From NCBI GenBank assembly GCA_012719445.1, contig JAAYAH010000109.1, positions 1 through 34,058 on the forward strand: a stretch of DNA of 34,058 bases, given 5' to 3'. How positions within the stretch are numbered: the first letter of the stretch is position 1; each line of letters opens with the position of its first letter. Below, piece by piece: positions 12,652-32,815 of the stretch. The notes below the pieces were generated by a model that was given only the letters and a program-made list of their open reading frames with translations, made no database searches and was not told the origin of the DNA. Made by a program: the position numbers and the translations under genes. The DNA is from Actinomycetales bacterium (GTDB taxonomy: Bacteria > Actinomycetota > Actinomycetes > Actinomycetales > Kineosporiaceae).

Positions 12652-15062
12652 GCCACGACCCCTGCCGCGATGATCTCCGCCCCGTGACCGGCGGCTGGGC
12701 CGACCCGACTCTCCGTACGGAGGAACGGGTCGAGGCACTCCTCGCCGTGATGACGCTGGAGGAGAAGCTCGCCCAGCTGACCGGTGTGTGGGTCGCCGTC
12801 GAGAACGGCGCCGACGGCGGGCACGAGGTCGCGCCGCACCAGCACGACATGAGCGACGACCGGAGCTTCGACGAGATCATCTGCAACGGCATCGGGCAGC
12901 TCACCCGGGTGTACGGCAGCCGGCCCGTCGAGCCGGTCGACGGCGCGCGGGCCCTCGCCGAGACCCAGCGCCTGCTCCGGGAGCGGACCCGCCTCGGCAT
13001 CCCCGCGATGGTGCACGAGGAGTGCCTCGCCGGCCTGACCGCCTACCGGGCTGCCGCCTTCCCGACCCCGCTGGCCCTCGCCGCCACCTTCGACCCCACC
13101 TCCGTCCAGGAGATGACCTCGCTCATCGGTGAGGACATGCGCCTGCTCGGCGTCCACCAGGGGTTGGCTCCGGTGCTCGACGTGATCCGGGACAGCCGTT
13201 GGGGGCGCGCGGAGGAGACCCTCGGCGAGGACCCCCACCTGGTGTCGGTCATGGCCACCGCCTACGTCCGGGGGCTCGAGGACGCCGGGGTGATCGCGAC
13301 GCTCAAGCACTTCGCCGGGTACTCCGCCTCCCGGGCCGGGCGGAACCTCGCCCCGGTCAGCGTCGGTCCGCGGGAGTTCGCCGACGTCCTGCTGCCGCCG
13401 TTCGAGGCCGCGCTGCGGGAGGGCGGTGCGCGGTCGGTGATGCACTCCTACACCGACGTGGACGGCGTGCCGTCGGTCGCCGACCGCAGGCTGCTCACCG
13501 AGCTGCTGCGGGAGGAGTGGGGGTTCGACGGCGTCGTCGTCGCCGACTACTTCGGCATCGCCTTCCTGGAGACACTGCACCGGCTGGCCGCCTCCCCCGG
13601 GGAGGCCGCCGCGCTCGCCCTGCGTGCCGGGGTCGACGTCGAACTGCCGACGGTGCGCTGCTACGGGGAGCCGCTGGCCGACCAGGTGCGCTCGGGCAGG
13701 GTCGGGATCGACCTGGTGGACCGGTCGGTCCGCCGGGTCCTCCGGCAGAAGATCGACCTGGGACTGCTGGACCCGTCCTGGACGCCGGAGCCTCCCGTGC
13801 TCAGCGATCGGCCGGACATCGAGCTGGACTCCGTGCGGCACCGGGCGGTGGCCCGGCGGCTCGCGGAGCGGTCCGTCGTCCTGCTCGCCAACGACGGCAC
13901 GCTCCCGCTCTCCCCCGCAGTGCGGAGCGTGGCCGTCGTCGGCCCGTGCGCGGACGATCCGCTGACCTTCCTCGGCTGCTACTCCTTCGCCAACCACGTC
14001 GGCGCCAACCACCCCGAGGCCGGGCTGGGCATCGACGTGCCGACCGTGCTCTCCGCCCTGCGCGCCCAGCTCCCCGACCTGTCCGTCGAGCACGTGCGCG
14101 GCTGCGCGGTGGACGGCGCCGACCGGTCGGAGTTCCCGGACGCGCTGGCCGCGGCCGCGCGGGCCGACCTGTGCCTCGCCGTCCTCGGCGACCGGGCAGG
14201 CCTCTTCGGCGACGGGACCTCCGGTGAGGGCTGCGACGTCCTCGACCTGTCCCTGCCCGGCGTCCAGGGCGAACTGCTGGAGCAGCTGGTCGGCACCGGC
14301 ACCCCGGTGGTGCTGGTGACGGTGACCGGCCGCCCGTACGCCGTCGGGGCGTGGAGCGACCGGCTGGCCGCGCACGTGCAGGCATTCTTCCCCGGCGAGG
14401 AGGGCGGGACGGCCCTGGCCGCGGTGCTCAGCGGTGAGGTGTCGCCGTCGGGCCGGCTGCCGGTGCAGTTCCCCCGCGGCGCCGGCGGCCAGCCCGCCGG
14501 GTACCTGCACGCCCCGCTCGGCGGCAGGAGCGAGGTCAGCGCCGCCGACCCCACGCCGCTGTACGCCTTCGGCCACGGGCTGAGCTACACGTCGTTCGCC
14601 TACTCCGAGCTGGGGATCGCCGATCCGAGCCTGGACACGGCAGGGGAGACCACGCTGAGCTGTGTGCTGACCAACACCGGGGAACGCAACGGGACCGAGG
14701 TGGTACAGCTCTACCTCACCGACCCGGTGGCGCAGGTCACCCGGCCGGTGCAGCAACTGGCTGGCTTCACGCGGGTCACCCTGGATCCCGGTGACTCGGC
14801 CCGGGTCACCTTCCGGCTGCACACCGACCGGACGGCCTTCACCGGCCGGTCGATGCACAAGATCGTCGAACCGGGCACCCTCGAGGTGAGGATCGGGTCC
14901 TCGGCCTGCGACCTGCCGCTGCACGGCACGATCGAGCTCACCGGGCAGGTCCGTCAGGTCGGTCACGACCGGGTGCTGCTGACCCCGGTCGAGGTCGAGC
15001 CGCTCACCAGGGAACCGGTTGCCGCGGCGGAGGGCTCCCTCGGGATGGGCCTGCTCAGCTGA
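12648..15062 (+). CDS. Glycoside hydrolase family 3 (beta-xylosidase/beta-glucosidase-like), cytoplasmic
   Basis: An 804-residue GH3 enzyme with no signal peptide, so it should act on imported oligosaccharides. The N-terminal TIM-barrel carries WGRAEETLGEDPHL, ATLKHFAGYSASRAGRN (Lys220-His221) and the nucleophile motif GVVVADYFGI with Asp300. An alpha/beta sandwich domain follows (about 400-620, LPLSPAVRSVAVVGP, GEGCDVLDLSLPGVQ), then a fibronectin-III-like C-terminal domain (about 660-740). Length and layout match BxlA-type beta-xylosidases. Beta-glucosidase or alpha-arabinofuranosidase activity cannot be excluded. The ATG at 12648 overlaps the LacI stop and has GAGGA upstream. Open frame continuing left of this start is antisense to the transporter genes and is not coding. 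Confidence 0.93.
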   Translation: MSHDPCRDDLRPVTGGWADPTLRTEERVEALLAVMTLEEKLAQLTGVWVAVENGADGGHEVAPHQHDMSDDRSFDEIICNGIGQLTRVYGSRPVEPVDGARALAETQRLLRERTRLGIPAMVHEECLAGLTAYRAAAFPTPLALAATFDPTSVQEMTSLIGEDMRLLGVHQGLAPVLDVIRDSRWGRAEETLGEDPHLVSVMATAYVRGLEDAGVIATLKHFAGYSASRAGRNLAPVSVGPREFADVLLPPFEAALREGGARSVMHSYTDVDGVPSVADRRLLTELLREEWGFDGVVVADYFGIAFLETLHRLAASPGEAAALALRAGVDVELPTVRCYGEPLADQVRSGRVGIDLVDRSVRRVLRQKIDLGLLDPSWTPEPPVLSDRPDIELDSVRHRAVARRLAERSVVLLANDGTLPLSPAVRSVAVVGPCADDPLTFLGCYSFANHVGANHPEAGLGIDVPTVLSALRAQLPDLSVEHVRGCAVDGADRSEFPDALAAAARADLCLAVLGDRAGLFGDGTSGEGCDVLDLSLPGVQGELLEQLVGTGTPVVLVTVTGRPYAVGAWSDRLAAHVQAFFPGEEGGTALAAVLSGEVSPSGRLPVQFPRGAGGQPAGYLHAPLGGRSEVSAADPTPLYAFGHGLSYTSFAYSELGIADPSLDTAGETTLSCVLTNTGERNGTEVVQLYLTDPVAQVTRPVQQLAGFTRVTLDPGDSARVTFRLHTDRTAFTGRSMHKIVEPGTLEVRIGSSACDLPLHGTIELTGQVRQVGHDRVLLTPVEVEPLTREPVAAAEGSLGMGLLS

Positions 15063-15106
15063 CCCGGTCCGCGGCCCCGGACCGCAGACCGGCGCCGGAG
15101 ACCCAC

Positions 15107-15137
15107 GAGGGGGCGCACTCGTCGAGTGCGCCCCCTC
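15107..15137. terminator. Bidirectional hairpin terminator after the GH3 gene
   Basis: Perfect 15-base arms (15107-15121 and 15123-15137) surround one central base, with no U-tract. It lies between the convergent GH3 gene and the four-helix membrane protein gene, so it can serve both. Confidence 0.75.
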
Positions 15138-15179
15138 GCCGTCCGGGGTGTCTCTGTCCGGGCTGTCGGCGTCCGGATG

Positions 15180-15677
15180 TCACTCGGGCGCCGCGGACGA
15201 CTCCGCCGGATGCCTCACCTGCATGCGGCTGAGTCGCCGAACACCGAACACGGCGATGATCAGCCCGACCGTCCCCCCGGCGACGAAGGACAACCCGAAT
15301 GCGGATCCCGGCTCCAGGGCACAGAAGAGGCCGACGAGGCAGGCGATCGTCGGGAGAATCTGGGCGACGATACGCACACCGCTCAGATCCTCCGTCGACC
15401 ACGGGTTCACCCCCTTCGCCACCGCATAGCCGATGGGGAGGTACATGCCTGCGATGACGAGGAGGAACAGGGCGACCGCATAGGGAATGGCCTCCCGCCC
15501 GCCCACGAACAACATCACGGCCGCCATGAGCTGCCCGACCCAGGCGAGGACGACGAGCGAGAACGCCGCACCCTCGTTCCAGACGTCGCGCTGACGTTCC
15601 TCGGTGTAAAAGGGATGCCCGAAGTCCGCGACGACCGCCGCGAACCGGACGTAACGACTCTCTGTCACGCTACTCAC
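15180..15677 (-). CDS. Four-helix membrane protein paired with an XRE regulator
   Basis: A 165-residue protein of a family I do not recognise with certainty. It has four predicted membrane helices (about 37-59, 62-87, 102-121, 126-147) between a polar N-terminus (SRYVRFAAVVADFGHPFYTEERQRDVWNEG) and a basic tail. The GTG at 15675-15677 overlaps the stop of the upstream XRE gene in a GTGA junction, so the two are made together. Small XRE-plus-multi-helix membrane protein pairs (for example YozG/YoaS with DUF2975, or DUF2178 pairs) are widespread and mostly unstudied. Family membership here is by organisation only. Confidence 0.82.
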   Translation of the reverse strand: MSSVTESRYVRFAAVVADFGHPFYTEERQRDVWNEGAAFSLVVLAWVGQLMAAVMLFVGGREAIPYAVALFLLVIAGMYLPIGYAVAKGVNPWSTEDLSGVRIVAQILPTIACLVGLFCALEPGSAFGLSFVAGGTVGLIIAVFGVRRLSRMQVRHPAESSAAPE

Positions 15678-15952
15678 TTCTCCTCGTGTCGGCCCCGGGC
15701 GTCAGCGGTCTTCCGGTCGTCGCTGGTCTTCCGGTCGTTCGGCTCGGCGAACAGTGCCTCGACGGTCTCACCGAGCGCCTCCGCGAGCCTCAGCGCCAGA
15801 TAGACCGACGGCGCGTAGTCACCGGCCTCGACAGCCACCATCGTCTGCCGGCTCACGCCGATCTCGGCCGCGAGCTGGGCCTGGGTCTTCCCGGTCAGGA
15901 CCCGCGCCGGACGCACGCGGTTCCCGCGCCCTCCTGCTGTCGTCTTCACCAC
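15674..15952 (-). CDS. Small XRE-family (Cro/CI-type) transcriptional regulator
   Basis: A 92-residue DNA-binding protein. Its single helix-turn-helix domain (about residues 20-70) reads KTQAQLAAEIGVSRQTMVAVEAGDYAPSVYLALRLAEAL and is followed by a short charged tail (NDRKTSDDRKTADARGRHEEK). There is no ribosome site, but a consensus promoter places its start point at or next to the GTG at 15950-15952, so the message should be leaderless. A perfect 48-bp inverted repeat covering the -35 is the obvious autoregulatory operator. It is coupled to the membrane protein downstream; the signal sensed is unknown. Confidence 0.92.
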   Translation of the reverse strand: MVKTTAGGRGNRVRPARVLTGKTQAQLAAEIGVSRQTMVAVEAGDYAPSVYLALRLAEALGETVEALFAEPNDRKTSDDRKTADARGRHEEK

Positions 15953-15958
15953 GAGGGA

Positions 15959-15987
15959 AATGTATGGTCAACTAGACATCGTGTCAA
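15959..15987 (-). promoter_or_regulatory. Promoter of the XRE/membrane-protein pair
   Basis: On the minus strand, TTGACA (15982-15987) matches the -35 consensus perfectly. A 17-base spacer leads to TACATT (15959-15964), and the GTG follows six bases later. The expected start point is at or next to the GTG, hence a leaderless message. Confidence 0.8.
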
Positions 15988-16014
15988 GTTTAGTAGACAC
16001 GATGTCTAGTTGAC
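15967..16014. promoter_or_regulatory. 48-bp inverted-repeat operator of the XRE regulator
   Basis: GTCAACTAGACATCGTGTC (15967-15985) and its exact complement (15996-16014) flank a 10-base AT-rich centre. Each arm contributes to a smaller dyad of the form TAGACA-n3-TGTCTA (15973-15987, one mismatch, and 15994-16008, perfect). Their centres are 21 bp apart, two helical turns. The first overlaps the -35 of the XRE promoter. This layout suits two regulator dimers bound on one face of the DNA. Confidence 0.85.
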
Positions 16015-16063
16015 CTGACACGTCGACCTCGGGAGACAGGCACCCATCTCCCGGGATGACGGC

Positions 16064-17650
16064 TCAGCGGGTCGGCACGCCCTCACGGAACAGGCCGTAG
16101 ACCAGCCCGTCGCACAGCGCCTGCCAGGACGCCTCGACGATGTTCGCCCCCACACCGACGGTCTGCCAGGTGGTCTCGGCGTCCGCGGTCTCGATGAGCA
16201 CCCGGGTCACCGCGTCGGTGCCCTGAGAGGCGTCGAGGATGCGGACCTTGTAGTCGACGAGGGTGAACCGCTCGAGCTCCGGGTACACCGGCAGCAGGGC
16301 CAGGCGCAGGGCGTGGTCGAGGGCGTTCACCGGGCCGTTGCCCTCGCCGGTCGCCACCTGGCGGGCCTGGCTGGTCAGCAGCTTCACCGTGGCCTCGGAC
16401 AGCGCGCCGCCGGGCTGCACGGGGTTGGACTCCGTGATCACCCGCCAGCTCTCGACGGTGAAGTAGCTGGGCCGGGCGCCGTCCACCTCCTCGCGGACGA
16501 GCAGCTCGAACGACGCGTCCGCCGCCTCGAAGGTGTACCCGGTTGCCTCCAGCTCCTTGACCCGCTCGGTGATCCGGGTCAGCGCCGCCTTGTCCCCGGC
16601 GAGGTCGAGACCCAGCTCGCGGCCCTTGAGCTCGACCGAGGCCCGCCCCGCCATGTCCGAGACGAGCATCCGCATGTCGTTGCCGACCGTCATCGGGTCG
16701 GTGTGCTGGTAGAGGTCCGGGTCGACCCGGATGGCGCTGGCGTGCAGGCCGGCCTTGTGGGCGAAGGCGCTGGCCCCGACGTAGGGCTGCCGGGAGTACG
16801 GCGGGACGTTGGTGATCTCGCTGACCGCGTGCGCGATCCGGGTGGCGTCGGTGAGCTTGCCCCCGGTCAGCACGGTGCGGCCGAGCTTCAGCTCCAGGTT
16901 GGCGACCAGCGTGATCAGGTTGGCGTTGCCGGTCCGCTCGCCGTACCCGTTGAGGGTTCCCTGGACGTGCATGGCACCCGCGTCCACAGCCGCGAGGGAG
17001 TTGGCGACGGCGCACCCGGTGTCGTTGTGGCAGTGGATGCCCAGCGCGGCCGAGGAGCGGTCCCGCACCACGGCGACGACGTCGGCGATCTGCGGCGGCA
17101 GCATCCCGCCGTTGGTGTCGCACAGGGCGACGATCTCGGCCCCGGCCTCGGCGGCGGTGCGGACCACCTCGACGGCGTAGTCGGGGTCGTGCCGGTACCC
17201 GTCGAAGAAGTGCTCGGCGTCCAGGAACACCCGGCGGCCCTCGGCGCGGAGGTGGGCGACGGTGTCCCGGATCATGTCGAGGTTCTCCTCCGGCGTGGTC
17301 CGCAGGGCCTTGAGGACGTGCCGGACGTCGCTCTTGGCGACCAGGGTGACCACCGGGGCTCCGGAGTCCACCAGCGCCCGCACCTGCTGGTCGTCGGCCG
17401 CGGCCACACCGGCCCTGCGGGTGGACCCGAAGGCCGCGAGGACCGCGTGACGCAGCCCGAGTTCTTCCGCCGCGCGCCGGAAGAACTCGGTGTCCTTGGG
17501 GATGGCACCCGGCCAGCCGCCCTCGATGTAGCTGACGCCGAGATCGTCGAGGTGCCGGGCAATGGCGAGCTTGTCCTGCACCGTGAGGGACAGGCCCTCC
17601 TGCTGCGCCCCGTCGCGCAGGGTCGTGTCGTAGACGTGGAACTCGCTCAT
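16064..17650 (-). CDS. cimA: Citramalate synthase
   Basis: A 528-residue HMGL/DRE-TIM enzyme that condenses pyruvate with acetyl-CoA to (R)-citramalate, the threonine-independent entry into isoleucine synthesis. The barrel has the catalytic YDTTLRDGAQQEGLSLT, metal-site HCHNDTG and GTLNGYGERTGNANL. The C-terminal ~200 residues form the LeuA-type allosteric dimerisation domain. YIEGGWPGAIPKDTEFF is characteristic of the CimA subgroup rather than LeuA or homocitrate synthase. The ATG at 17648-17650 follows GGAAGG at normal spacing. Its mRNA begins with an Ile-codon leader peptide and terminator, so isoleucine-responsive attenuation is expected. ilvE, leuB and serA lie upstream on the same strand but behind a strong hairpin. 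Confidence 0.94.
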   Translation of the reverse strand: MSEFHVYDTTLRDGAQQEGLSLTVQDKLAIARHLDDLGVSYIEGGWPGAIPKDTEFFRRAAEELGLRHAVLAAFGSTRRAGVAAADDQQVRALVDSGAPVVTLVAKSDVRHVLKALRTTPEENLDMIRDTVAHLRAEGRRVFLDAEHFFDGYRHDPDYAVEVVRTAAEAGAEIVALCDTNGGMLPPQIADVVAVVRDRSSAALGIHCHNDTGCAVANSLAAVDAGAMHVQGTLNGYGERTGNANLITLVANLELKLGRTVLTGGKLTDATRIAHAVSEITNVPPYSRQPYVGASAFAHKAGLHASAIRVDPDLYQHTDPMTVGNDMRMLVSDMAGRASVELKGRELGLDLAGDKAALTRITERVKELEATGYTFEAADASFELLVREEVDGARPSYFTVESWRVITESNPVQPGGALSEATVKLLTSQARQVATGEGNGPVNALDHALRLALLPVYPELERFTLVDYKVRILDASQGTDAVTRVLIETADAETTWQTVGVGANIVEASWQALCDGLVYGLFREGVPTR

Positions 17651-17693
17651 CGTGTGCCTTCCATCAGCTCGGGTCCTGCGCACCCCCGACACG

Positions 17694-17721
17694 AAAAAGA
17701 CCCCTCGCTCCGCGAGAGGTC
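17694..17721 (-). terminator. Rho-independent terminator of the cimA attenuator
   Basis: In the minus-strand RNA, GACCUCUCGC pairs with GCGAGGGGUC (one G-U pair) around a GGA loop and is followed by UUUUU. It lies between the leader peptide (17755-17802) and cimA. A true U-tract is rare among the hairpins of this window and is shared with the ilvB leader. Confidence 0.88.
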
Positions 17722-17754
17722 TGCGCGTCGACGGTGTCGGGACGAGGTGCGTCC

Positions 17755-17802
17755 TCAGACGGTGCCGACGCGCCTGCCGATAATGATCACCGACGTACGC
17801 AT
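17755..17802 (-). CDS. cimA leader peptide with three consecutive Ile codons
   Basis: A 15-codon ORF, MRTSVIIIGRRVGTV, reading ATG CGT ACG TCG GTG ATC ATT ATC and so on, ending TGA. It is placed as expected for a ribosome-mediated attenuator: 33 bases before the terminator stem and 104 bases before cimA. Behind the Ile codons, GCGCGTCG in the coding part can pair with CGACGCGC immediately before the terminator (plus-strand 17766-17773 and 17723-17730), and GGACG/CGTCC forms a small hairpin at the stop codon. Starvation for Ile (product of the CimA route) would stall the ribosome here. There is no strong ribosome site; the ATG may be at or near the mRNA 5' end (a weak -10-like CACACT lies 9 bases upstream). 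Confidence 0.82.
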   Translation of the reverse strand: MRTSVIIIGRRVGTV

Positions 17803-17907
17803 GACCGAGCCAGTGTGCCACATCTCCGACCCCGCAGCCGCATCACCCCCTCACCCCGGCCAGCTCCCCCGACGGCCACCCCCGACCACTCCCCACCCGC
17901 GCACCCC

Positions 17908-17962
17908 CACCGGTGGCGAAGTGGGCTCATTCTTCGAGAATGAGCCCACTTCGCCACCGGTG
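17908..17962. terminator. 26-bp perfect stem-loop downstream of ilvE
   Basis: Arms at 17908-17933 and 17937-17962 are exact reverse complements around the loop TCG. No U-tract follows. It lies 26 bases after the ilvE stop and upstream of the cimA leader promoter, so it isolates cimA from ilvE transcription. The rest of the 17803-17988 spacer is C-rich with no gene. Confidence 0.8.
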
Positions 17963-17988
17963 ACCGTTGAGGGGAGCCGGCGGGAGGG

Positions 17989-19086
17989 TCAGGCCAGGCG
18001 GCGCATCCAGCCGTGGGCGTCGGCGGCGCGGCCGTACTGGATGTCGACCAGGGCCTGGCGCAGCCGCATGGTGACCTCCCCCGCACCGCCGTCACCCATG
18101 GCCAGTTCACCGCCGTCCCACCGCAGGCACCCGACCGGGGTGATCACGGCGGCGGTGCCGCAGGCGAAGACCTCCGCGATCTCCCCGGAGCCCACGCCGT
18201 CACGCCACTCGTCGATGCCCACCCGCCGTTCCTCGACGTCGAACCCGAGCTCCTTGGCGAGCTCCAGCACCGAGGAACGGGTGACCCCCTCGAGGATGGT
18301 CCCGGTCAGCTCGGGGGTGACCAGCCTGCCGTCCCGGCGCACGAAGTAGAGGTTCATGCCACCCAGCTCCTCGACCCAGTGCCGGTCGACGGCGTCGAGG
18401 AAGCAGACCTGCTGGCAGCCGTGGGCCGACGCCTCGAGCTGGGCGGCGAGGCTCGCGGCGTAGTTACCGCCGCACTTCGCGGCCCCGGTGCCGCCCCGGG
18501 CGGCCCGGGTGTACGCGGTGGACAGCCAGATCGACACCGGCTTGACCCCGCCGGCGAAGTACGAGCCGACCGGGCAGGCGATGAGCAGGTACCGGATCTC
18601 CGCGGCCGGCCGGACCCCCAGGAACGGCTCCGAGGCGAACATGAACGGCCGGAGGTAGAGCGAGGTCTCCTCCCCCGACGGAACCCAGGCGAGGTCGGTC
18701 CGGACCAGCAGGTCGATGGAGGCGAGGAAGTCCTCCACGGGGAACGCGGGCAGGGCCAGCCGCCGGGCCGAGTGCATGAAGCGCTCGCCGTTCGCCTCCG
18801 TCCGGAAGCCCCACACCGAGCCGTCGGCGTGCCGGTAGGCCTTCAGCCCTTCGAAGATCTCCTGGCCGTAGTGCAGGACGGCGGCCGCCGGGTCGAGGGT
18901 GAGCGGGCCGTACGGCTCGAGCTTCGCGTCGTGCCACCCCTCGTCCCTCGTCCAGGTCGCGGAGACCATGTGGTCGGTGAAGTACCTGCCGAACCCGGGG
19001 TCGGCCAGGATGGCCTGCCGCGCCTCGGGCGGGGTGGGGTTGGGGTTGCGGTGCTCGGCGAACCGAAGTGACGGGTTACCGGTCAT
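17989..19086 (-). CDS. ilvE: Branched-chain amino acid aminotransferase
   Basis: A 365-residue fold-type IV PLP enzyme for the last step of Ile, Val and Leu synthesis, using glutamate as amino donor. The PLP lysine is Lys204 in GAAKCGGNYAASLAAQ. Other family segments are HYGQEIFEGLKAYRHADG, SLYLRPFMFASE and EELGGMNLYFV, with GTAAVITPVG near the C-terminus. Length is normal for the large (eukaryote/actinobacterial) IlvE type. The ATG at 19084-19086 has AAGGAG upstream. A 26-bp hairpin follows the stop and a GC hairpin separates it from leuB. Confidence 0.96.
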   Translation of the reverse strand: MTGNPSLRFAEHRNPNPTPPEARQAILADPGFGRYFTDHMVSATWTRDEGWHDAKLEPYGPLTLDPAAAVLHYGQEIFEGLKAYRHADGSVWGFRTEANGERFMHSARRLALPAFPVEDFLASIDLLVRTDLAWVPSGEETSLYLRPFMFASEPFLGVRPAAEIRYLLIACPVGSYFAGGVKPVSIWLSTAYTRAARGGTGAAKCGGNYAASLAAQLEASAHGCQQVCFLDAVDRHWVEELGGMNLYFVRRDGRLVTPELTGTILEGVTRSSVLELAKELGFDVEERRVGIDEWRDGVGSGEIAEVFACGTAAVITPVGCLRWDGGELAMGDGGAGEVTMRLRQALVDIQYGRAADAHGWMRRLA

Positions 19087-19238
19087 GGCTGAGTGCTCCT
19101 TGCGCATCCCCCGACGGCGCCGGAGCCGCCGGGCGGCACCGTGACGTCCGCACGGCACCGAGGTCTGTTGGGGACCGTACCAGCGGAGGTGGGGGTCGCC
19201 GGGCGGGGCACGACTGTTGGACGTGCACGCCCGGTGGA

Positions 19239-19261
19239 ACCGGCCCGGGGTGCGGGCCGGT
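19239..19261. terminator. GC hairpin after leuB
   Basis: ACCGGCCCG (19239-19247) and CGGGCCGGT (19253-19261) form a 9-bp stem with a 5-base loop, starting 7 bases after the leuB stop. There is no U-tract. It is probably the leuB terminator, ahead of ilvE. Confidence 0.6.
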
Positions 19262-19267
19262 CGTGCG

Positions 19268-20323
19268 TCAGCCCGCGACGCGGGCTGCGATGGCGTCCCC
19301 GATCTCCGCTGTGCGGCGGGGTACTCGGGGGCCTTCCGGACCGCAGCGCTCGGCCAGGTCCGTTGCGACGGCCTGCTCGATCCGTCGCGCCGCCTTGTCC
19401 TGGCCGACGTGCTCCAGCAGCAGCGCCACCGAGAGGACGGTCGCCGTCGGGTCGGCCTTGCCCTGGCCCGCAATGTCGGGGGCGGAACCGTGAACCGGCT
19501 CGAACATGCTCGGCGTCGTCCGGTCCGGGTTGATGTTGCCGGACGCGGCGAGGCCGATGCCACCGCACACCGCGGCCGCCAGGTCGGTGATGATGTCGCC
19601 GAAGAGGTTGTCGGTGACGATGACGTCGAACCGCGCCGGGTCGGTGACCATGAAGATCGTCGCCGCGTCGACGTGCTGGTAGTTGACCGAGACCTCGGGG
19701 AACTCGGGGTGGACCCGCTCGACGGTGCGCCGCCACAGGTGACCGGCATGCGTGAGCACGTTGTGCTTGTGCACCAGGGTGAGACTCCGGCGGGGCCGGG
19801 AGACCGCCCGGCGGAACGCGTCCCGGACGACGCGCTCGACGCCGAAGGCGGTGTTGACGCTGACCTCGGTGGCGATCTCGTGCGGGGTGCCGACCCGCAC
19901 CGCACCGCCGTTGCCGACGTACGGCCCCTCGGTGCCCTCGCGCACGACGACGAAGTCCACGTCGCCGGGGTCGGCCAGCGGGGAGCGCACACCGGGGAAC
20001 AGCCGGCCCGGCCGCAGGTTGACGTAGTGGTCCAGCTCGAACCGCAGCCGCAGCAGCAGGCCCCGCTCCAGGACCCCGCTCGGCACCCCGGGGTCGCCGA
20101 CGGCACCCAGCAGGATCGCGTCGTGCTGGCGGAGCTCGGCGAGGACGCTGTCCGGGAGGGTCTCGCCGGTGGCGTGCCAGCGGCGGGCCCCGAGGTCGAA
20201 CCCGGTGGTCTCGACGGCCACCTCGCCGTCGACGGCCGCGTTGAGGACCTTCAGGCCCTCGGCGACCACCTCGGGACCGATCCCGTCACCGGGGATGACG
20301 GCGAGACGCAGCGACTCGGTCAT
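19268..20323 (-). CDS. leuB: 3-isopropylmalate dehydrogenase
   Basis: A 351-residue isocitrate/isopropylmalate dehydrogenase-family enzyme that oxidatively decarboxylates 3-isopropylmalate in leucine synthesis. Signatures are [15 protein letters not shown], the substrate-binding Arg/Lys segments ([21 protein letters not shown]), [12 protein letters not shown], the metal site [14 protein letters not shown] and the NAD-binding [18 protein letters not shown]. This is the shorter actinobacterial type. The ATG at 20321-20323 has no ribosome site but sits six bases after TAGCCT, implying a leaderless message. It follows serA on the same strand by 175 bases that contain its own promoter-like elements. 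Confidence 0.95.
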
Positions 20324-20329
20324 GCCGCA

Positions 20330-20360
20330 AGGCTAGCCCCAACGTCCGGATGCCGGTCAA
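20330..20360 (-). promoter_or_regulatory. Candidate leaderless promoter of leuB
   Basis: TTGACC (20355-20360), a 19-base spacer and TAGCCT (20330-20335) are followed by six bases and the leuB ATG. The spacer is slightly long but both hexamers are recognisable. Confidence 0.55.
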
Positions 20361-20498
20361 CTCGTCTCGCCATGTGGACACGGGGCGAGGTTCGGCGGAG
20401 ATCGGACGACTCGTCCCCCGCGCGACGCCGGACCGACGCCGGACCGCTGCACCCGCTCGCGTCCGGCGCCGGTCGCCGACGTCGTGTTCCGCCCCGGG

Positions 20499-22088
20499 TC
20501 ACTCCTCCAGGTCGATCACCCGGACCGAGGTCGCCCCCGCCTCGCGGGCGACGTCGCCGAGCAGCTCGACCGGCGGTGCCGAGTCGAGGGTGAGCACGCT
20601 CAGCGCGTCCCCGCCCTCGGCGTTCCGGGCCACCTGCATGGATGCGATGTTGACCCCGGCGTCGCCGAGGATCCTCCCCAGCGCACCGATCACCCCGGGA
20701 CGGTCTGTGTAGCGCAGCACGAGCATGTGGGCCGTCAGCGGCACCTCGAGGTCGAGGCCGTCGATCCCGACCAGCTTCTCCACCTGCTTCGGGCCGGTCA
20801 GGGTGCCGTCGACGGCCACCTGGGTGCCGTCGGCGAGGGTCCCCCTCAGGGTGATCACGTTGCGGAACTCCGGGCTCTCCGCCGTGGTCAGCAGCCGTAC
20901 CTCGATGCAGCGGTCGGCGGCGAGCACGGGGGCGTTCACGTAGGTGACCTTCTCCTCGACGATGTCGGTGAACAGGCCCTTGAGCGCGGCGACCTGGAGC
21001 ACCGACACGTCGTACTGGCTGATCTCGCCCCTGATCTTGACGTCGAACTGCACCGGCGCCGAGCCGGCGAGCGCGGTGAACACCCGGCCGAGCTTCTCGA
21101 CCAGCGGGATCCCCGGCCGGACGTCCTCGGCGACGACACCGCTGGGGGCGTTGACGGCGTCCGGCACCAGCTCCCCGGACAGGGCGAGCCGGACGGACCT
21201 GGCCACCGCGACGCCCGCCTTCTCCTGCGCCTCGGCGGTCGAGGCGCCCAGGTGCGGGGTGACCACGACGTTGTCCAGCTCGAACAGCGGCGAGGAGGTG
21301 CACGGCTCCTTGGCGAACACGTCGAGGCCCGCGCCGGCGACCCGGCCGTCCACGAGCGCGCGGTACAGCGCGTCCTCGTCGACGATGCCGCCCCTGGCCG
21401 CGTTGACGATGCGGACGGTCGGCTTGACCTTGTGCAGCTCCTCGTCGCCGATGAGCCCGATGGTCTCCGGTGTCTTGGGCAGGTGGACGGTGATGAAGTC
21501 GCTCTGTTCGAGCAGCTCGTCCAGGCTGACCAGCTTCGCCCCGAGCTGCCCTGCCCTGGCGCTGGAGACGTAGGGGTCGTAGGCGATGAGCCGCACGTCG
21601 AAGCCGCCGAGGCGCTGGGCGACGAGCTGGCCGATCCGGCCGAGCCCGACGACGCCGACGGTCTTGTCGAGCAGCTCGACCCCGGAGTACTTCGACCGCT
21701 TCCACTGCCCCGCCTTGAGCGCGGCACCCGCCTGGGGGACGTTGCGGGCCGAGGCCAGCAGCAGGGCGATGGACAGCTCGGCAGCGGAGGTGATGTTCGA
21801 GGTCGGGGCGTTGACCACCATGACCCCCGCCTGGGTCGCGGCCTTGACGTCGACGTTGTCGAGCCCGACCCCCGCCCTGGCGACGACGCGCAGCCTCCTG
21901 GCTGCGGCCAGGGCCTCGGCGTCGACCTTGGTGGCCGAACGGACCAGGATCGCGTCGACGTCGACGATGGCAGTCAGCAGCTGACCCCGGTCGGAGCCAT
22001 CACAGGAGCGGATCTCGAAGTCGGGCCCGAGGGCCTCGATGGTCGCCGGCGAGAGCTCCTCTGCGATGAGCACGACTGGCCTGGTCAC
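20499..22088 (-). CDS. serA: D-3-phosphoglycerate dehydrogenase
   Basis: First enzyme of serine synthesis, 529 residues, the long form found in actinobacteria. Order: substrate and NAD domains (about 1-315) with the Rossmann motif GVVGLGRIGQLVAQRL, the catalytic Arg in NAARGGIVDEDALYRAL and His in PHLGASTAEAQEKA. Then comes the intervening ASB domain (about 320-450), and a C-terminal ACT domain (about 455-529, RYTDRPGVIGALGRILGDAGVNIASMQV) that binds serine for feedback control in relatives. I chose the GTG at 22086-22088 (MTRPVVLIAEELSP) because GGAGGAA lies just upstream and homologues start there. The ATG at 22100 would use the ribosome site as coding sequence. The frameshifted SDR gene lies directly upstream. 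Confidence 0.95.
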   Translation of the reverse strand: MTRPVVLIAEELSPATIEALGPDFEIRSCDGSDRGQLLTAIVDVDAILVRSATKVDAEALAAARRLRVVARAGVGLDNVDVKAATQAGVMVVNAPTSNITSAAELSIALLLASARNVPQAGAALKAGQWKRSKYSGVELLDKTVGVVGLGRIGQLVAQRLGGFDVRLIAYDPYVSSARAGQLGAKLVSLDELLEQSDFITVHLPKTPETIGLIGDEELHKVKPTVRIVNAARGGIVDEDALYRALVDGRVAGAGLDVFAKEPCTSSPLFELDNVVVTPHLGASTAEAQEKAGVAVARSVRLALSGELVPDAVNAPSGVVAEDVRPGIPLVEKLGRVFTALAGSAPVQFDVKIRGEISQYDVSVLQVAALKGLFTDIVEEKVTYVNAPVLAADRCIEVRLLTTAESPEFRNVITLRGTLADGTQVAVDGTLTGPKQVEKLVGIDGLDLEVPLTAHMLVLRYTDRPGVIGALGRILGDAGVNIASMQVARNAEGGDALSVLTLDSAPPVELLGDVAREAGATSVRVIDLEE

Positions 22089-22157
22089 AACTTCCTCCAT
22101 ACGGACGGACGGTCCCCGGTGGACACCGGTGGAGTCTACGAGGGCTTGTGAAGGCCC

Positions 22158-23079
22158 TCACGAGCCGCCGTCGGTGAGATCCGGCACGCTCGGGCGCGGA
22201 TAGGGAAGCAGTCCGAGCGCCCTGGCCCGGAGGAGGTCGAAGCAGGGGGTCGGCAGCCAGCGGAACGCCGTCCGCAGTGCCCGCGACCCCGGTCCCACCG
22301 GGTAGCGGGTCCTGGGACGCCGCCGGGTCATGGCGGCGAGGACCACGCGCGCCACGACCTCGGGATCGGCCCCGGCCCGCTCGTGCCGCCCGGCGCGAGC
22401 CGCCATGGCGCGCAGGGCCGACGCGTACCGGACCCTGCCCTCGTCCGACATCCCCTCGACGAGGGTCACGATCGCGGCCTCGAGCTCGTCGAGCCGGGGA
22501 GCGGACGGTCCCCGGCTCGACGAGCACCACCGGGAGGCCCCACGGGCGCAGCTCCATCCGCAGGGCATCGGAGAGCGAGCGCAGGGCGTGCTTGGACGCG
22601 CACAGTGCGCCGCCGAAGGGCAGGGTGACCCAGCTCCCGACGGATCCGATGGAGACGATCCGACCGCCGCCTGCCCGCAGCAGCGGAAGCACGGCCTGGG
22701 TGACGGCCACCTGTCCGATGACGTTGACCTCGAACTGGCGCCGCAGCTCCTCGAGCGGGACCAGTTCGACCGGACCCGGGACGCCGATCCCGGCGTTGTT
22801 CACCAGGCCCGCGAGCCCGGACGGCGCGTCGGCGACCTCCGCGGCGAGCTCGGCGGCGACGGCCGCGATCAGGGCGGGGTCGGTGACGTCGAGCCGCACG
22901 GGCCGGACCCGCCCCGTCGGGTCCGCCGCGGCGACCCGCTCGCCGTCGGCGAGGTCCCTGACCCCGGCGTGCACCAGGAACCCGGCCTCGGCCAGGGCCA
23001 GCGCGCTCGCCCTTCCGATTCCCGTCGACGCCCCGGTGACCAGCACCCGACCCCTGACAGCACCGACCGCACCAGCCAT
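22158..23079 (-). pseudogene. Short-chain dehydrogenase/reductase, frameshifted
   Basis: Two frames together give one SDR of about 306 residues. The first part (from the ATG at 23077-23079) has VLVTGASTGIGRASALALAEAG, LVNNAGIGVPGPVE, the catalytic-Ser segment IVSIGSVGS and LRPWGLPVVLVEPGT. The reading then shifts near 22510 to the frame LDELEAAIVTLVEGMSDEG, which runs through RRRPRTRYPVGPGSRAL to a stop at 22158. The shift (one extra base or two missing) falls in a 16-bp perfect inverted repeat. The catalytic Tyr of YxxxK is Leu here (ALCASKHAL), which argues for a decayed or non-catalytic gene rather than a simple read error. A small hairpin (22140-22159) overlaps the stop. The substrate is unknown. 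Confidence 0.82.
22485..22524. repeat. 16-bp inverted repeat at the SDR frameshift
   Basis: CTCGTCGAGCCGGGGA (22485-22500) and its exact complement (22509-22524) flank GCGGACGG. The reading-frame change of the SDR gene lies in this element. Confidence 0.9.
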
Positions 23080-23158
23080 GGCCGCTCTCCCGATGGTCCC
23101 TGCCCCGGTCAGGGGCTCGAACAGGACGTTTTCCGGTGATCGTAACGGGATGTCCTCC

Positions 23159-23172
23159 ACGTGTGGTCACGT
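23159..23172. promoter_or_regulatory. ACGTG-n4-CACGT dyad between SDR and epimerase genes
   Basis: A perfect 5-bp inverted repeat with a 4-base centre in the divergent spacer between the SDR gene (minus) and the epimerase gene (plus). It could be a regulator site. There is no other support. Confidence 0.3.
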
Positions 23173-23227
23173 TCTGGTATCGGTGCGTGGCGATGAGCGA
23201 AACCTCCCCCGGGTCCGCACGGTCCCC

Positions 23228-23233
23228 TAGGCT
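23228..23233 (+). promoter_or_regulatory. -10-like element of the epimerase gene (leaderless)
   Basis: TAGGCT is followed by seven bases and the GTG at 23241, the same geometry as in front of the FAH gene. No clear -35 is visible. Confidence 0.5.
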
Positions 23234-23240
23234 TCCCCCC

Positions 23241-24272
23241 GTGAGGGTGCTCCACGTCGGTGGTACGGGTCTGCTCAGTTCCGCGTGCGCCGACGCCGGG
23301 ATCAGGGCGGGCCACGAGGTGTGGCTGCTCAACCGGGGCAGGACCAGGAACGTGCCGGTCCCGGACGGCGTCCATCGGCTGGTCGCCGACGCCCGCTCCC
23401 CCGCCGCGGTCGCCGCGGCGGTGACCGGGACGACCTTCGACGTCGTGGTGCAGTGGATCGGGTTCACCCCGGACCAGGTGCGCGCGGATCTCGATCTGTT
23501 CGCCGGGGTCGGCCAGTACGTCTTCGTCAGCTCGGCGAGCGTGTACCGGAAACCGCCGGCGCACTACCTGGTCCGCGAGTCCAGCACCCCGCTGGAGAAC
23601 CCGTTCTGGCAGTACGCCCGGGACAAGATCGCGTGCGAACTGCTGCTCAGCGAGGCCCATCGCCGCACCGGCTTCCCTGTCACCGTCGTGCGGCCGTCGC
23701 TCACCTACGGTCCGAGCCAGATCCCGGTGTGCGTCGGCAGTTGGGAGCGGCCGTGGACGATCGTCGACCGGATGCGCAGGGGCGCCGAGGTCATCGTCCC
23801 CGGCGACGGGACGAGCCTGTGGACCGTCACCCATGCCGACGACCTCGCGACCGGGCTGGTCGGGCTGCTCGGCAACCCGCGGGCGATCGGCGAGGCCGTG
23901 CACATCACCTCCGACGAGGTCCTCACCTGGAACGACATCTACCGGGAGGTCGGCAGGGCCGCTGGGGTCGAGCCGCGGTTGTTGCACGTGCCGACGGACG
24001 CCCTGGTCGCGGCGGACCCGGAGCTGGAGGGAACGCTGCTGGGCGACAAGGTGCACAGCACGGTCTTCGACAACAGCAGGCTGCGCGACCTGGTCCCCGG
24101 CTTCACCGCAACGGTCCCCTTCACCGAGGGCATCCGGTCCACGATCGCCTGGTTCGAGGCCGACGTCACCCGCAGGCTGGTGGACCGGGAGGCCGACGCG
24201 CTGTGGGACCGGATCGCGGAGGTCTACACCACCGCGCTCGCCCGCGTCGTCCCGCCGCCGATCGAACGCTGA
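23241..24272 (+). CDS. NAD-dependent epimerase/dehydratase family protein
   Basis: A 343-residue extended-SDR protein. The N-terminal nucleotide-binding segment is [31 protein letters not shown] (GGTGxxS in place of the usual GGTGFIG). The active-site pair is the YxxxK of [14 protein letters not shown], preceded by [11 protein letters not shown]. It resembles the CSP41/isoflavone-reductase-like members that are often annotated only as epimerases; the substrate is unknown. I chose the GTG at 23241 because TAGGCT precedes it at leaderless spacing and the Rossmann fold begins immediately. An ATG at 23193 would add 16 unlikely residues. A 23-bp tandem repeat straddles the stop codon. Confidence 0.88.
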
Positions 24273-24326
24273 CCCCGCCGCCGATCGCGGGCTGTCCCCG
24301 GCACCGATCGCACGCTGCTCCCGGCA
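24258..24326. repeat. Three-copy 23-bp tandem repeat across the epimerase stop
   Basis: Copies begin at 24258, 24281 and 24304 with the shared core CCGATCG-n3-GCTG-n2-CCCGG. The first copy is coding (ends PPPIER, stop). The rest of the 24273-24468 spacer holds only the catalase control region. Confidence 0.75.
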
Positions 24327-24392
24327 CCGGGGCGCCACCGCCCCGATGCCCCACCCCATCGGGTATCCGGGTCCGCTCGTTCCGCTGAGGCA

Positions 24393-24406
24393 TTCCATGA
24401 ATGGAA
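24393..24406. promoter_or_regulatory. Operator-like dyad upstream of the catalase gene
   Basis: TTCCATGAATGGAA is a perfect 6+2+6 inverted repeat, 63 bases before the catalase ATG. A wider pair GCATTCC (24390-24396) / GGAATGC (24414-24420) surrounds it. Catalases of actinobacteria are commonly controlled by Fur-family peroxide sensors (CatR, FurA) that bind such AT-richer dyads; the regulator is not in the window. Confidence 0.55.
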
Positions 24407-24468
24407 GCCGTCCGGAATGCGTGCGAGGGTCGTCCCGAGAGACCCGCAGGGAAGAGAGGGGACCACCC

Positions 24469-26121
24469 ATGACCGACGTGCCGCCGGCACCGGCGTCCGG
24501 GGACCGCCAGGTGCTGACCGACCGTCAGGGACATCCGATCCACGACAACCAGAACCAGCGCACCGTCGGTGCCCGCGGGCCGGCGACGCTGGAGAACTAC
24601 CACTTCCTCGAGAAGATCAGCCACTTCGACCGGGAGCGGATCCCGGAACGGGTGGTGCACGCCCGCGGGGTCACCGCCTACGGGTACTTCGAGTCCTACG
24701 GCCGCTGGGGGGACCAGCCGATCGGCTCCCTCACCCGGGCGAGGCTCTTCCAGGAGGAGGGCCGACGCACCGACGTCGCCGTGCGGTTCTCCACGGTCAT
24801 CGGCGGCCGCGACTCCGCGGAGACAGCGCGCGACCCGCGGGGCTTCGCGGTGAAGTTCTACACCGAGGACGGGAACTGGGACCTCGTCGGCAACAACCTC
24901 GCGGTGTTCTTCATCCGCGACGCGATCAAGTTCCCGGACGTCATCCACGCGCTCAAACCGGACCCGGTGACCTTCCGCCAGGAGGCCGCACGGATCTTCG
25001 ACTTCATGTCGCAGACCCCGGAGAGCATGCACATGCTCGTCAACCTGTTCAGCCCGCGCGGGATCCCGGCGGACTACCGGCACATGCAGGGCTTCGGGGT
25101 CAACACCTACAAGTGGGTCAACGCCGCGGGTGACACGAAGCTGGTCAAGTACCACTGGATGCCGAGGCAGGGGGTGCGCAGCCTCACCGCGGCCGACGCC
25201 GCCGTCGTCCAGGCGGGCGATCTCGGCCACGCCACCAGGGACCTCTACGACGCCGTGGCCCGCGGCGAGTACCCGGAGTGGGAGCTGCGCGTCCAACTGA
25301 TGGACGACCACGACCACCCCGAACTCGACTTCGACCCGCTCGACGACACCAAGGTGTGGCCGGAGAACACGTTCCCTGCCCGCCCGGTGGGTCGGATGGT
25401 GCTCGACCGGATGCCGGCCGACTTCTTCACCGGGAACGAGCAGATCGCCTTCGGCACCGGCGTGCTCGTCGACGGGCTGGACTTCTCCGACGACAAGATG
25501 CTCGTCGGGCGCACGTTCTCCTACAGCGACACCCAGCGGTACCGGGTCGGGCCGAACTACCTCCAACTGCCCGTCAACCAGGCCCGGAACGCCTCTGTCG
25601 CCACCAACCAGCGCGACGGCCAGATGGCCTACCACGTGGACGGCACCGGGGAGAACCCGCACGTCAACTACGAGCCCTCGATCACCGGCGGGCTGTCCGA
25701 GGCCCCGAGACCGGCCCACGACGAGCAGGGTCCCGTGATCGAGGGCAGGCTCACCCGGCGACGGATCCCACGGACCGACGACTACACCCAGGCGGGGCAG
25801 CGGTTCCGGCTGATGGCGGAGTGGGAGCGGGACGACCTGGTGGTCAACCTGGTCGACCAGCTCTCCCAGTGCCCCCGACCGATCCAGGAACGGATGGTCT
25901 GGCACTTCCTGCTGGTGGAGGACGAGCTGGGCCTGCGTGTCGGTGCGGGCATCGGGATCGGTCCGGACGACGTGCGCCACCTGCCGCCGCTGCCGGGTCA
26001 GACCCTCACCGAGGAGGACAGGGCCCGGCTGGAGACCCTCGGCGAGAACGGGCCCCGCGACGTCACCGGGCTGGAGATGACGCACTGCGTCCCGAACGAG
26101 CGGGTCGTGCCGGCCGGCTGA
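24469..26121 (+). CDS. Monofunctional heme catalase
   Basis: A 550-residue catalase that dismutates hydrogen peroxide in the cytoplasm. The distal His64 is in [15 protein letters not shown] and the distal Asn136 in [14 protein letters not shown]. The proximal heme-ligand Tyr352 is in [23 protein letters not shown], and [12 protein letters not shown] is intact. The C-terminal ~60 residues exceed the core fold but lack the flavodoxin-like domain of large-subunit catalases, so this is a small-subunit enzyme. The ATG at 24469 is preceded by GAAGAGAGGGG. An operator-like dyad lies upstream and a 20-bp perfect hairpin follows. It stands alone between metabolic genes and has no functional link to them that I can see. 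Confidence 0.96.
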
Positions 26122-26130
26122 TCGCCGGAG

Positions 26131-26174
26131 CCTCGTGGGCCCCGGGGAGGTCGTCCTCCCCGGGGCCCACGAGG
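26131..26174. terminator. 20-bp perfect hairpin after the catalase gene
   Basis: Arms at 26131-26150 and 26155-26174 are exact complements with the loop TCGT, starting 9 bases after the catalase stop. There is no U-tract. It lies between the convergent catalase and ilvC and could act for both. Confidence 0.8.
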
Positions 26175-26196
26175 TCACCATGGCTCACCGACGCAT

Positions 26197-26244
26197 CACC
26201 CGGCACGGGTGCCGACCCGACCACCCGGCACGGGTGCCGACCCG
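26197..26244. repeat. Duplicated small hairpin downstream of ilvC
   Basis: A 23-base sequence occurs at 26197-26219 and again at 26222-26244. Each copy contains the 6-bp hairpin CACCCG-GCA-CGGGTG. The pair ends 6 bases after the ilvC stop and may terminate or stabilise the ilvC transcript. Confidence 0.8.
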
Positions 26245-26250
26245 GCGCGG

Positions 26251-27351
<1,101 letters not shown>

Positions 27352-27428
27352 TCACTCGTCCCCGAGGTCACCGCTCATCGCTCACCGCGATGCCGAGATC
27401 GCTCGGGTCGGAGGTCGTTCGGTGGAGC

Positions 27429-27461
27429 GCGGACGGCACGATTCCACACCGTGCCGTCCGC
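27429..27461. terminator. 12-bp perfect hairpin between ilvN and ilvC
   Basis: GCGGACGGCACG (27429-27440) and CGTGCCGTCCGC (27450-27461) pair perfectly around a 9-base loop, 22 bases after the ilvN stop. There is no U-tract. It could terminate part of the ilvBN message or mark a processing point before ilvC. Confidence 0.6.
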
Positions 27462-27483
27462 ACCCCGTGCGCCGGGTCGGCGA

Positions 27484-27996: not shown

Positions 27997-28024
27997 GGTC
28001 TGACCCTCACTCCTCACTGTCCGC

Positions 28025-29824: not shown

Positions 29825-29930
29825 CTCGGCCTCTCCTCGATCGACTCGGCAGAACTGGGGTCTCCGGCCGAGAAGGTCGGCCGGGCATCGCTGGTGCCGC
29901 GCTCCGGCGGCTGAACCTGGTCTGGTCACG

Positions 29931-29966
29931 AAAAGACCCCTCGGCCCGGTGGGCAGGCGAGGGGTC
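29931..29966 (-). terminator. Rho-independent terminator of the ilvB attenuator
   Basis: In the minus-strand RNA, GACCCCUCG (plus 29958-29966) pairs with CGAGGGGUC (29935-29943), capped by an inner GCCC/GGGC stem with a GGU-complement loop and a 3-base bulge, followed by UUUU. It lies between the leader peptide and ilvB. Confidence 0.88.
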
Positions 29967-29990
29967 GCGCGCTCGGCGGTCCGTGGGGAC

Positions 29991-30029
29991 TCAGCCGGCG
30001 CGCCGTCCGACTACGAGGGAGCGCAGCAT
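29991..30029 (-). CDS. ilvBN leader peptide (Leu/Val codons)
   Basis: A 12-codon [15 protein letters not shown], with codons ATG CTG CGC TCC CTC GTA GTC and so on, ending TGA at 29991-29993. Leu and Val codons just before a U-tailed terminator are the hallmark of ribosome-mediated attenuation of ilv operons. Attenuation of actinobacterial ilvB is established (Corynebacterium ilvBNC, comparative studies of actinobacterial leaders). GGCGCGCC at 29997-30004 can compete with GCGCGC at 29967-29972 next to the terminator, and GTCC/GGAC forms a small hairpin after the stop. The promoter spacing puts the mRNA start at or beside the ATG, so the peptide is probably leaderless. Confidence 0.85.
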
Positions 30030-30036
30030 GAGCCTC

Positions 30037-30065
30037 ACGGTCCTCCGCACCGGGAGAGCTGTCAA
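30037..30065 (-). promoter_or_regulatory. Promoter of the ilvBN leader
   Basis: TTGACA (30060-30065, perfect consensus), 17 bases and GACCGT (30037-30042) are followed by seven bases and the leader ATG. The -10 match is weak but the geometry is ideal. Confidence 0.65.
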
Positions 30066-30100
30066 ACCGTATGCCACCCCGTCTCGCGATGTGAGACCGG

Positions 30101-32746: not shown

Positions 32747-32752
32747 GGCGCG

Positions 32753-32758
32753 AGGCTA
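32753..32758 (-). promoter_or_regulatory. -10-like element of the GGDEF-EAL gene (leaderless)
   Basis: TAGCCT on the minus strand lies six bases before the GTG start, as for leuB. No clear -35 is visible. Confidence 0.45.
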
Positions 32759-32815
32759 GCCTGCCGGCCGGGACCGGGGCAGGTCGCGGGGGGATCCGGG
32801 ACGCGCGGATCCCGG

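Follow-up and report, generated by a model that had tools for sequence, protein, structure and literature searches.

A putative isoleucine-codon attenuator with back-to-back hairpins upstream of cimA in Actinomycetes

Leader elements have been described for several amino acid genes of Actinobacteria. Seliverstov et al. (2005) reported trp, cys, ilvB, leuS, leuA and ileS elements in this group, and cimA is not described in the accessible part of that report (PMC1262725). In the ilvB1 leader of M. tuberculosis, replacement of LVVI by AAAA abolished induction and removal of the terminator eased the phenotype, according to the available portion of PMC13236596. For the S. coelicolor ilvB leader, codon changes are reported to have been without effect on regulation (PMC1262725, same part). 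The accessible sections of PMC11857589 describe antiterminator and terminator hairpins in C. glutamicum whose bases are adjacent, with 3 nt in common, and the ilvB-II motif is described in the available part of PMC10272879. A transcriptome-based list for S. lividans names eight leader peptides, none of them at cimA in the portion of the source available (PMC8079986), and neither cimA nor citramalate occurs in the accessible text of PMC11109978. A search of the open-licence literature found no attenuator for cimA or citramalate, in agreement with the preliminary description of this DNA, which had suggested that an attenuator before cimA may be new.

The DNA analysed here, referred to as the window, is a stretch of 34,058 nucleotides from a member of the Kineosporiaceae (Actinomycetales). 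It carries a leader element in front of cimA and a sister element in front of ilvB. The features discussed are as follows.

17812..17822, minus strand: promoter-like -10 stretch TGTGGCACACT, with the hexamer CACACT at 17817-17812
17802-17694, minus strand: cimA leader element, consisting of mini-ORF, hairpin A and terminator, then cimA
17755..17802, minus strand: leader mini-ORF MRTSVIIIGRRVGTV and stop, with the ATG at 17802-17800 and the end at 17755
17779..17787, minus strand: sensor box, the three consecutive Ile codons ATC ATT ATC
17723..17773, minus strand: hairpin A, GCGCGTCGGC...GTCGACGCGC, its 5' arm within the mini-ORF
17694..17722, minus strand: intrinsic terminator, AGACCTCTCGC-GGA-GCGAGGGGTCT plus TTTT, with zero gap to hairpin A
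16064..17650, minus strand: cimA, the presumed target of regulation, encoding citramalate synthase (528 aa)
29931..30029, minus strand: sister attenuator before ilvB (mini-ORF 30029-29991), its sensor reading LVV; hairpin A GCGCGCCGGC...GCCGAGCGCGC, abutting terminator GACCCCTCG...CGAGGGGTC TTTT

The codons of the mini-ORF before cimA are ATG CGT ACG TCG GTG ATC ATT ATC GGC AGG CGC GTC GGC ACC GTC TGA, and the three consecutive isoleucine codons that the preliminary description had placed in a minus-strand leader are indeed present at 17787-17779. Its naming of the downstream gene also held, the product matching the TIGR00977 equivalog at 639 bits against a cut-off of 450. Hairpin A ends at 17723 and the terminator starts at 17722, leaving the two stems back to back. 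The terminator stem (17722-17698) contains 11 pairs, 7 of them G-C, and a 3-nt loop followed by TTTT. A single U-tailed stem of 10 bp had been claimed at this position; the U tail was correct, the length was one pair short, and hairpin A had been overlooked. A consensus promoter scan of 17300-18300 returned no site. The -10-like stretch is separated from the ATG of the mini-ORF by 9 nt, and 19 of 30 loci of the order show the same pattern, in each case 6-10 nt ahead of the mini-ORF. In S. lividans the distance from the -10 element to the transcript start averages 6.3 nt, according to the accessible part of PMC8079986. With its 9-nt spacing, the cimA mini-ORF is therefore probably leaderless or nearly so.

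Two features flank this region. A perfect inverted repeat with 26-base arms, a 3-base loop and no U-tract lies behind ilvE at 17908-17962 (minus), upstream of the cimA promoter. Downstream of cimA, 15180-15952 (minus) encodes a helix-turn-helix protein (HTH_3) together with an ORF lacking a Pfam match, and a promoter-like site, TTGACA-N17-TACATT, is located at 15987-15959 in company with this HTH_3 gene region.

Several measures indicate that the two stems exceed chance. The leader (117 nt) folds at -55.8 kcal/mol with z = -3.35, and none of 200 shuffles folded as well. Among 20 relatives, 93.8% of the cells of the two stems form pairs versus 42-56% when slid, and doubly changed cells number 35 versus 1-11 in the slid versions. 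Pairs changed on both sides amount to 8 of 20 over the two stems in these relatives, including 5 of the 10 in hairpin A. Five measures were compared against 500 shuffles; three were reached by none of them, whereas pairs changed on both sides were reached by 17 of 500 and further pair types by 243 of 500. A terminator scan found one site in 17300-18300 where 0.1 was expected, although it proves little alone, because the same scan gave 3 sites against 3.3 expected over 15000-34058. A scan for strong abutting hairpin pairs recovered 50 of 69 model-positive cimA regions, none of 21 model-negative regions and 7 of 345 shuffles.

An Rfam search of the window returned only two tRNA genes at the gathering score (2705-2777 and 2850-2921, both minus) and nothing at the leader element, where a permissive threshold yielded a chance miRNA match only. 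Twelve related loci gave no Rfam match at the gathering score. A T-box riboswitch was rejected on the lack of a T-box covariance model match, and other riboswitches or named RNAs were rejected on the lack of a credible Rfam family at the element or in the 12 relatives.

The preliminary description had proposed looking for Ile-rich mini-ORFs and U-tailed hairpins before cimA in relatives. Among 30 loci drawn from the order, the window's family included, 27 carry such an element before cimA, with mini-ORFs read in all 27, and 69 of 90 further cimA loci match covariance model R1. Of these 90 loci, 7 belong to the same order and 83 represent 64 genera elsewhere in the class; cimA itself was detected in 156 of 197 class genomes. 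In a named set of 80 loci, which may have species in common with the order and class sets, 33 have a match no more than about 300 nt ahead of cimA, and another five have one at a greater distance, ahead of leuB. Genera matched in this set include Cellulomonas, Cellulosimicrobium, Isoptericola, Nonomuraea, Planotetraspora, Acrocarpospora, Amycolatopsis, Kutzneria, Lentzea, Pseudonocardia, Motilibacter, Pedococcus, Nocardioides and Demequina. Presence was counted by the covariance model because five genuine cases (L068, L106, L113, L115 and L157) escaped a simple pattern scanner. The element is not universal before cimA, being absent from 3 of the 30 order loci and 21 of the 90 further loci; inspection by eye of these 21 model-negative loci revealed no such element, and ilvE lies directly upstream in 8 of them (L110, L119, L128, L139, L143, L152, L154 and L155). 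Outside the class, one of 16 sampled cimA loci matched (L171, where the hairpins are 4 nt apart by eye).

The chassis is not restricted to cimA. In the window's own genome, a model built from cimA leaders only gave two matches at E < 0.01, namely the cimA leader (74 bits) and, second best, the ilvB leader (29931-30023, 22.7 bits). The preliminary description had named the cimA leader alone and did not mention this sister element. Across the phylum, 68 of 396 genomes contain a model match at E 0.01 or better. The downstream gene was checked for 51 matches (the window's own two, 29 loci and 20 additionally fetched) and proved to be ilvB in 30, cimA in 15 and leuA in 2, with 4 unassigned (L056, L063, L232 and L242). 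The two leuA loci lie outside the class and read LLL on the same chassis (MSQNLLLT in L064 and MKVHHRNGLLLR in L239); both proteins are LeuA by NCBIfam, scoring above the cut-off of the 2-isopropylmalate synthase model. In five loci from metagenome-assembled genomes (L295, L308, L316, L318 and L323; three carry the label Acidimicrobiaceae, two 'Actinomycetes bacterium') the element stands ahead of a leuB-(ilvE)-cimA row rather than cimA itself, and the four peptides read there all contain isoleucine (VIMD, VIIIS, VIIIA and IIISIS). The cimA and ilvB leaders have in common the hairpin and the peptide frame GRRVG/GRRAG, and the gap between hairpin and terminator in ilvB leaders is 0 in 33 of 49 and at most 1 in 46 of 49. 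Genus g37 possesses cimA leaders such as MLSFAMIIGSRRAGPQ; in two of its genomes (L222 and L223) the ilvB leader MRTRILVLGKRVG is identical to S. lividans IlvL, and g37 was therefore taken as Streptomyces. A conserved small ORF of about 90 aa follows the attenuator in L056, L063, L224, L225, L228 and L229, with ilvB next in four of the six; the L063 copy had no Pfam match.

The codons ahead of hairpin A differ according to the gene downstream. In the 24 nt preceding hairpin A, at least two consecutive Ile codons were found in 56 of 69 class cimA leaders versus 1 of 48 ilvB leaders and 56 of 1800 background 24-mers. Runs of at least three Leu/Val codons showed the reverse, with 2 of 69 cimA leaders, 37 of 48 ilvB leaders and 64 of 1800 background 24-mers. 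The covariance model contains ATT positions and biases the sensor windows in this contrast, but no more than 21 of the 90 loci fell outside the model, and inspection by eye revealed the element in none of them. The 27 order windows were excluded from the contrast because they had been picked by ATT. In the ilvB set, 2 of 50 regions lacked a hairpin pair and 48 were kept, including one whose hairpin pair is far from the gene and probably spurious (L213) and several in which the called hairpin start looks too far upstream. Isoleucine is encoded as ATT in 37 of 57 leader codons from 27 relatives versus 2 of 129 Ile codons in seven genes of the window, and the ATT share within cimA itself is 22 of 450 Ile codons in 24 relatives. 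The proposal of the preliminary description that isoleucine is the sensible signal for cimA agrees with these results, as consecutive Ile codons track cimA and Leu/Val runs track ilvB. Because these runs follow the downstream gene, an actinobacterial BCAA attenuator appears to have been retuned to isoleucine for cimA.

The Ile run is not invariable: 13 of the 69 class leaders and 3 of the 27 order leaders lack a pair of adjacent Ile codons. Nor is a lone Ile codon before hairpin A diagnostic of a cimA leader, as 28 of the 48 ilvB windows contain an Ile trinucleotide in one frame or another and 20 contain ATT. Three cimA leaders (L025, L027 and L030) encode a basic peptide with a single Ile codon (e.g. 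MTRTRQHRHRRCPIS and stop), yet retain two abutting hairpins.

The geometry of the element is tightly kept. A scan succeeded for all but one of 96 cimA leaders (L121), and the gap between hairpin A and the terminator is 0 in 27 of 27 order leaders and, overall, 0 in 82 of 95 and 1 in 11 of 95. The last Ile codon starts 6-9 nt before hairpin A in 83 of the 93 leaders scored (L075 and L102 gave no register) and exactly 8 nt before it in 50, the commonest register and that of the window. Its distance to hairpin A has a standard deviation of 1.3 nt versus 9.6 nt for the stop codon in the same 93 leaders; the search for the sensor codon was confined to the 24 nt next to hairpin A, which limits the first of these two spreads.

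Folding with a 12-nt ribosome footprint was used to compare ribosome states. When ATT occupies the A site, hairpin A keeps a probability of 0.83-1.00 in 11 of 27 leaders and 0.25-0.79 in the remaining 16; with the ribosome at the stop codon it drops to 0.00-0.01 in 24 of 27 and to 0.23-0.43 in three. Antitermination was assessed as occupancy of the terminator 5' arm before its 3' arm is made. Medians for the 27 cimA leaders were 0.06 with the ribosome at the first Ile codon, 0.18 at the last and 0.27 at the stop (up to 0.54), whereas the E. coli thrL, trpL and leuL controls gave 0.60-0.82 when stalled and 0.00-0.01 at the stop. The ilvB leader of the window, a Streptomyces-like one and four that read LVVI or nearly so, six in all, gave 0.00-0.15 stalled and 0.11-0.35 at the stop. 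The pattern of the cimA leaders, low on stalling and higher at the stop, is the opposite of the E. coli controls, and no classical antiterminator is therefore predicted; one sharing bases with the terminator was rejected in the 27 cimA leaders, and the same procedure shows one in all three controls. The full-length terminator probability is 0.92-0.99 in all ribosome states of the cimA leaders, a value that does not discriminate because the controls also give 0.95-1.00. Accordingly, the term attenuator used in the preliminary description holds in its broad sense and not in its classical form, as the base-sharing antiterminator was not found.

Taken as a sequence-based reading, it is highly probable that the element is a real and widely conserved leader-peptide attenuator by which cimA would respond to isoleucine. 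In the mechanism we propose, RNA polymerase would start at or beside the ATG of the mini-ORF and a ribosome would translate at once. When charged Ile-tRNA is short, the ribosome would halt while an Ile codon occupies its A site. At about 8 nt beyond the A-site codon, a duplex is expected to remain closed. With the last Ile codon 8 nt from hairpin A, the waiting ribosome would about meet the duplex without opening it, and hairpin A would remain shut. As shut hairpin A abuts the base of the terminator, the terminator would not be able to close properly, and transcription would read through into cimA. When isoleucine is plentiful, the ribosome would enter the 5' arm of hairpin A and open it, upon which the terminator would fold and transcription would stop. 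We infer translation, stalling, the sign of the response and the blocking of the terminator by the abutting hairpin; the sign (starvation leading to readthrough) is drawn from pathway logic and the ilvB experiments. A search of the open-licence literature yielded no report on the position of the ribosomal helicase and no precedent for an abutting hairpin that blocks a terminator without base sharing. Points in favour include the M. tuberculosis ilvB1 results and the adjoining hairpins of C. glutamicum; points against include the lack of effect reported for codon changes in S. coelicolor ilvB, the reversed occupancy pattern relative to E. coli, the class leaders short of two adjacent Ile codons, the ATT found in some ilvB windows and the cimA loci devoid of the element. 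A counterpoint to blocking is that, in 16 of the 27 leaders folded, hairpin A is predicted to be weakened as soon as the ribosome sits on ATT. Hairpin A could also reform if the ribosome leaves quickly, and fed cells would thus need good timing. Taken as a whole, the mechanism in which a stalled ribosome leaves hairpin A shut and the shut hairpin blocks the terminator stands at even chances or slightly better. A broader generalization can be offered only tentatively, and we would sooner doubt it than assume it: that Actinomycetota possess a modular attenuator in which an abutting, non-sharing hairpin would act as antiterminator by steric or stacking exclusion, with the sensor codon fixed about 8 nt before it and codon swaps retuning the response (Ile for cimA, Leu/Val(/Ile) for ilvB, Leu for leuA).

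The live rival to blocking assigns hairpin A the opposite role. Stacked on the terminator base, it would aid termination by stacking or pausing; a ribosome at the last Ile codon would hold its foot open and permit readthrough, and after the ribosome is gone both hairpins would close. The lowering of hairpin A to 0.25-0.79 with ATT in the A site suits this arrangement, the strict abutment suits stacking as well, and ribosome-free RNA folds with both hairpins closed, which would make OFF the default. Nevertheless, hairpin A is opened still further once the ribosome reaches the stop (0.00-0.01 in 24 of 27), so that fed and starved cells would differ only after release, and the C. glutamicum hairpin adjoining the terminator is an antiterminator according to the available part of PMC11857589. 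We regard the opposite role as unlikely, though deserving of attention. It is considerably less probable that a classical antiterminator involving a pseudoknot or a distant segment escaped the nearest-neighbour folding. A pseudoknot has been proposed for actinobacterial leuA leaders (the LEU element, in the accessible part of PMC1262725), and in the window's family the loop of hairpin A is long enough that it could accommodate a partner; the shortest leaders, however, leave almost no room for one, as in L026 with 88 nt in total and a tiny hairpin A loop.

Two further alternatives concern the sensor rather than the switch. As a legacy of the ilvB leader, the cimA leader could respond to branched-chain amino acids in general, its Ile codons being drift and not specificity. 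The common GRRVG/GRRAG frame and hairpin, the retention of Leu or Val before the Ile codons in some cimA leaders (e.g. SVLIID) and the presence of some Ile trinucleotide in 28 of 48 ilvB windows all point that way; against these, cimA leaders across the class keep consecutive Ile codons and lose Leu/Val runs, and the rare ATT is favoured in the leaders. We consider such an unspecific signal improbable. Least credible of all is an arrangement with no sensor, in which a conserved terminator pair or protein-binding RNA lies between ilvE and cimA and the ORF is incidental. Each stem does covary on its own, and the full-length terminator fold is independent of the ribosome state, but the codon content follows the downstream gene, the sensor register is fixed, and Rfam offers no credible family at the element and none at the gathering score in the 12 related loci.

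If the isoleucine-responsive reading is right, the attenuator would put a feedback signal on the entry to the threonine-independent isoleucine route in many actinomycetes, and would give strain engineering a defined site for relieving isoleucine feedback. Carriers include the Streptomyces-like group, though cimA is omitted from the S. lividans leader-peptide list in the available portion of PMC8079986. The cimA (Ile) and ilvB (Leu/Val) copies lie side by side as a natural codon-swap experiment on one chassis. The element may also help to reconcile the discordant outcomes of ilvB codon mutation in S. coelicolor and M. tuberculosis. The abutting, non-overlapping hairpins raise the question of whether a neighbouring hairpin can stop a terminator without competition for bases.

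Comparison with known systems places the cimA leader at some distance from the textbook case. The trp, thr and leu attenuators of E. coli resemble it in their cognate codons, in a terminator before the gene and in ribosome position as the presumed signal, and a cognate codon run in the leader ORF, one of the features of classical trp-type attenuators, is present before cimA; folding predicts an antiterminator that shares terminator bases for all three E. coli leaders and for none of the 27 cimA leaders. On the folding models, then, the cimA chassis would depart from textbook attenuation. The actinobacterial leuA LEU element and ileS T-box likewise exert RNA-level control of BCAA-related genes; in the accessible part of PMC1262725 the former is a proposed pseudoknot and ileS T-boxes act on translation start, whereas the cimA leader has no T-box match. 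Another parallel is the three-hairpin 'fast' attenuator of C. glutamicum ilvBNC, or ilvB-II, with a leaderless BCAA mini-ORF and control codons near the antiterminator foot (PMC11857589 and PMC10272879, available parts). Its hairpins share a GCC trinucleotide, while no shared bases are predicted for the cimA hairpins, and the minimum-energy fold of a C. ulcerans construct leaves its two stems 10 nt apart.

The closest likeness is to the actinobacterial ilvB leader, represented by S. lividans IlvL and M. tuberculosis ilvB1 (LVVI). As in the cimA leader, a mini-ORF contains BCAA codons, the stretch coding for G(K/R)RVG forms the 5' arm of hairpin A, and in the ilvB loci analysed a U-tailed terminator abuts or nearly abuts hairpin A; ilvB leaders with LVVI or near it have this same layout, with a gap of 0 in three of the four folded and 2 in one. 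The S. lividans ilvB leader is leaderless, and the cimA mini-ORF is probably so or nearly so. For M. tuberculosis, the published model has hairpins that exclude one another (PMC13236596, accessible part), while those of cimA are predicted not to overlap. What distinguishes the cimA leader from the ilvB leader is its target and its isoleucine sensor codons; the BCAA-codon ORF next to a promoter-like stretch, the abutting U-tailed terminator and the homology are those of an ilvB-type leader. The Ile-tuned attenuator of cimA, apparently unreported until now, thus apparently belongs with the ilvB leaders of Actinobacteria.
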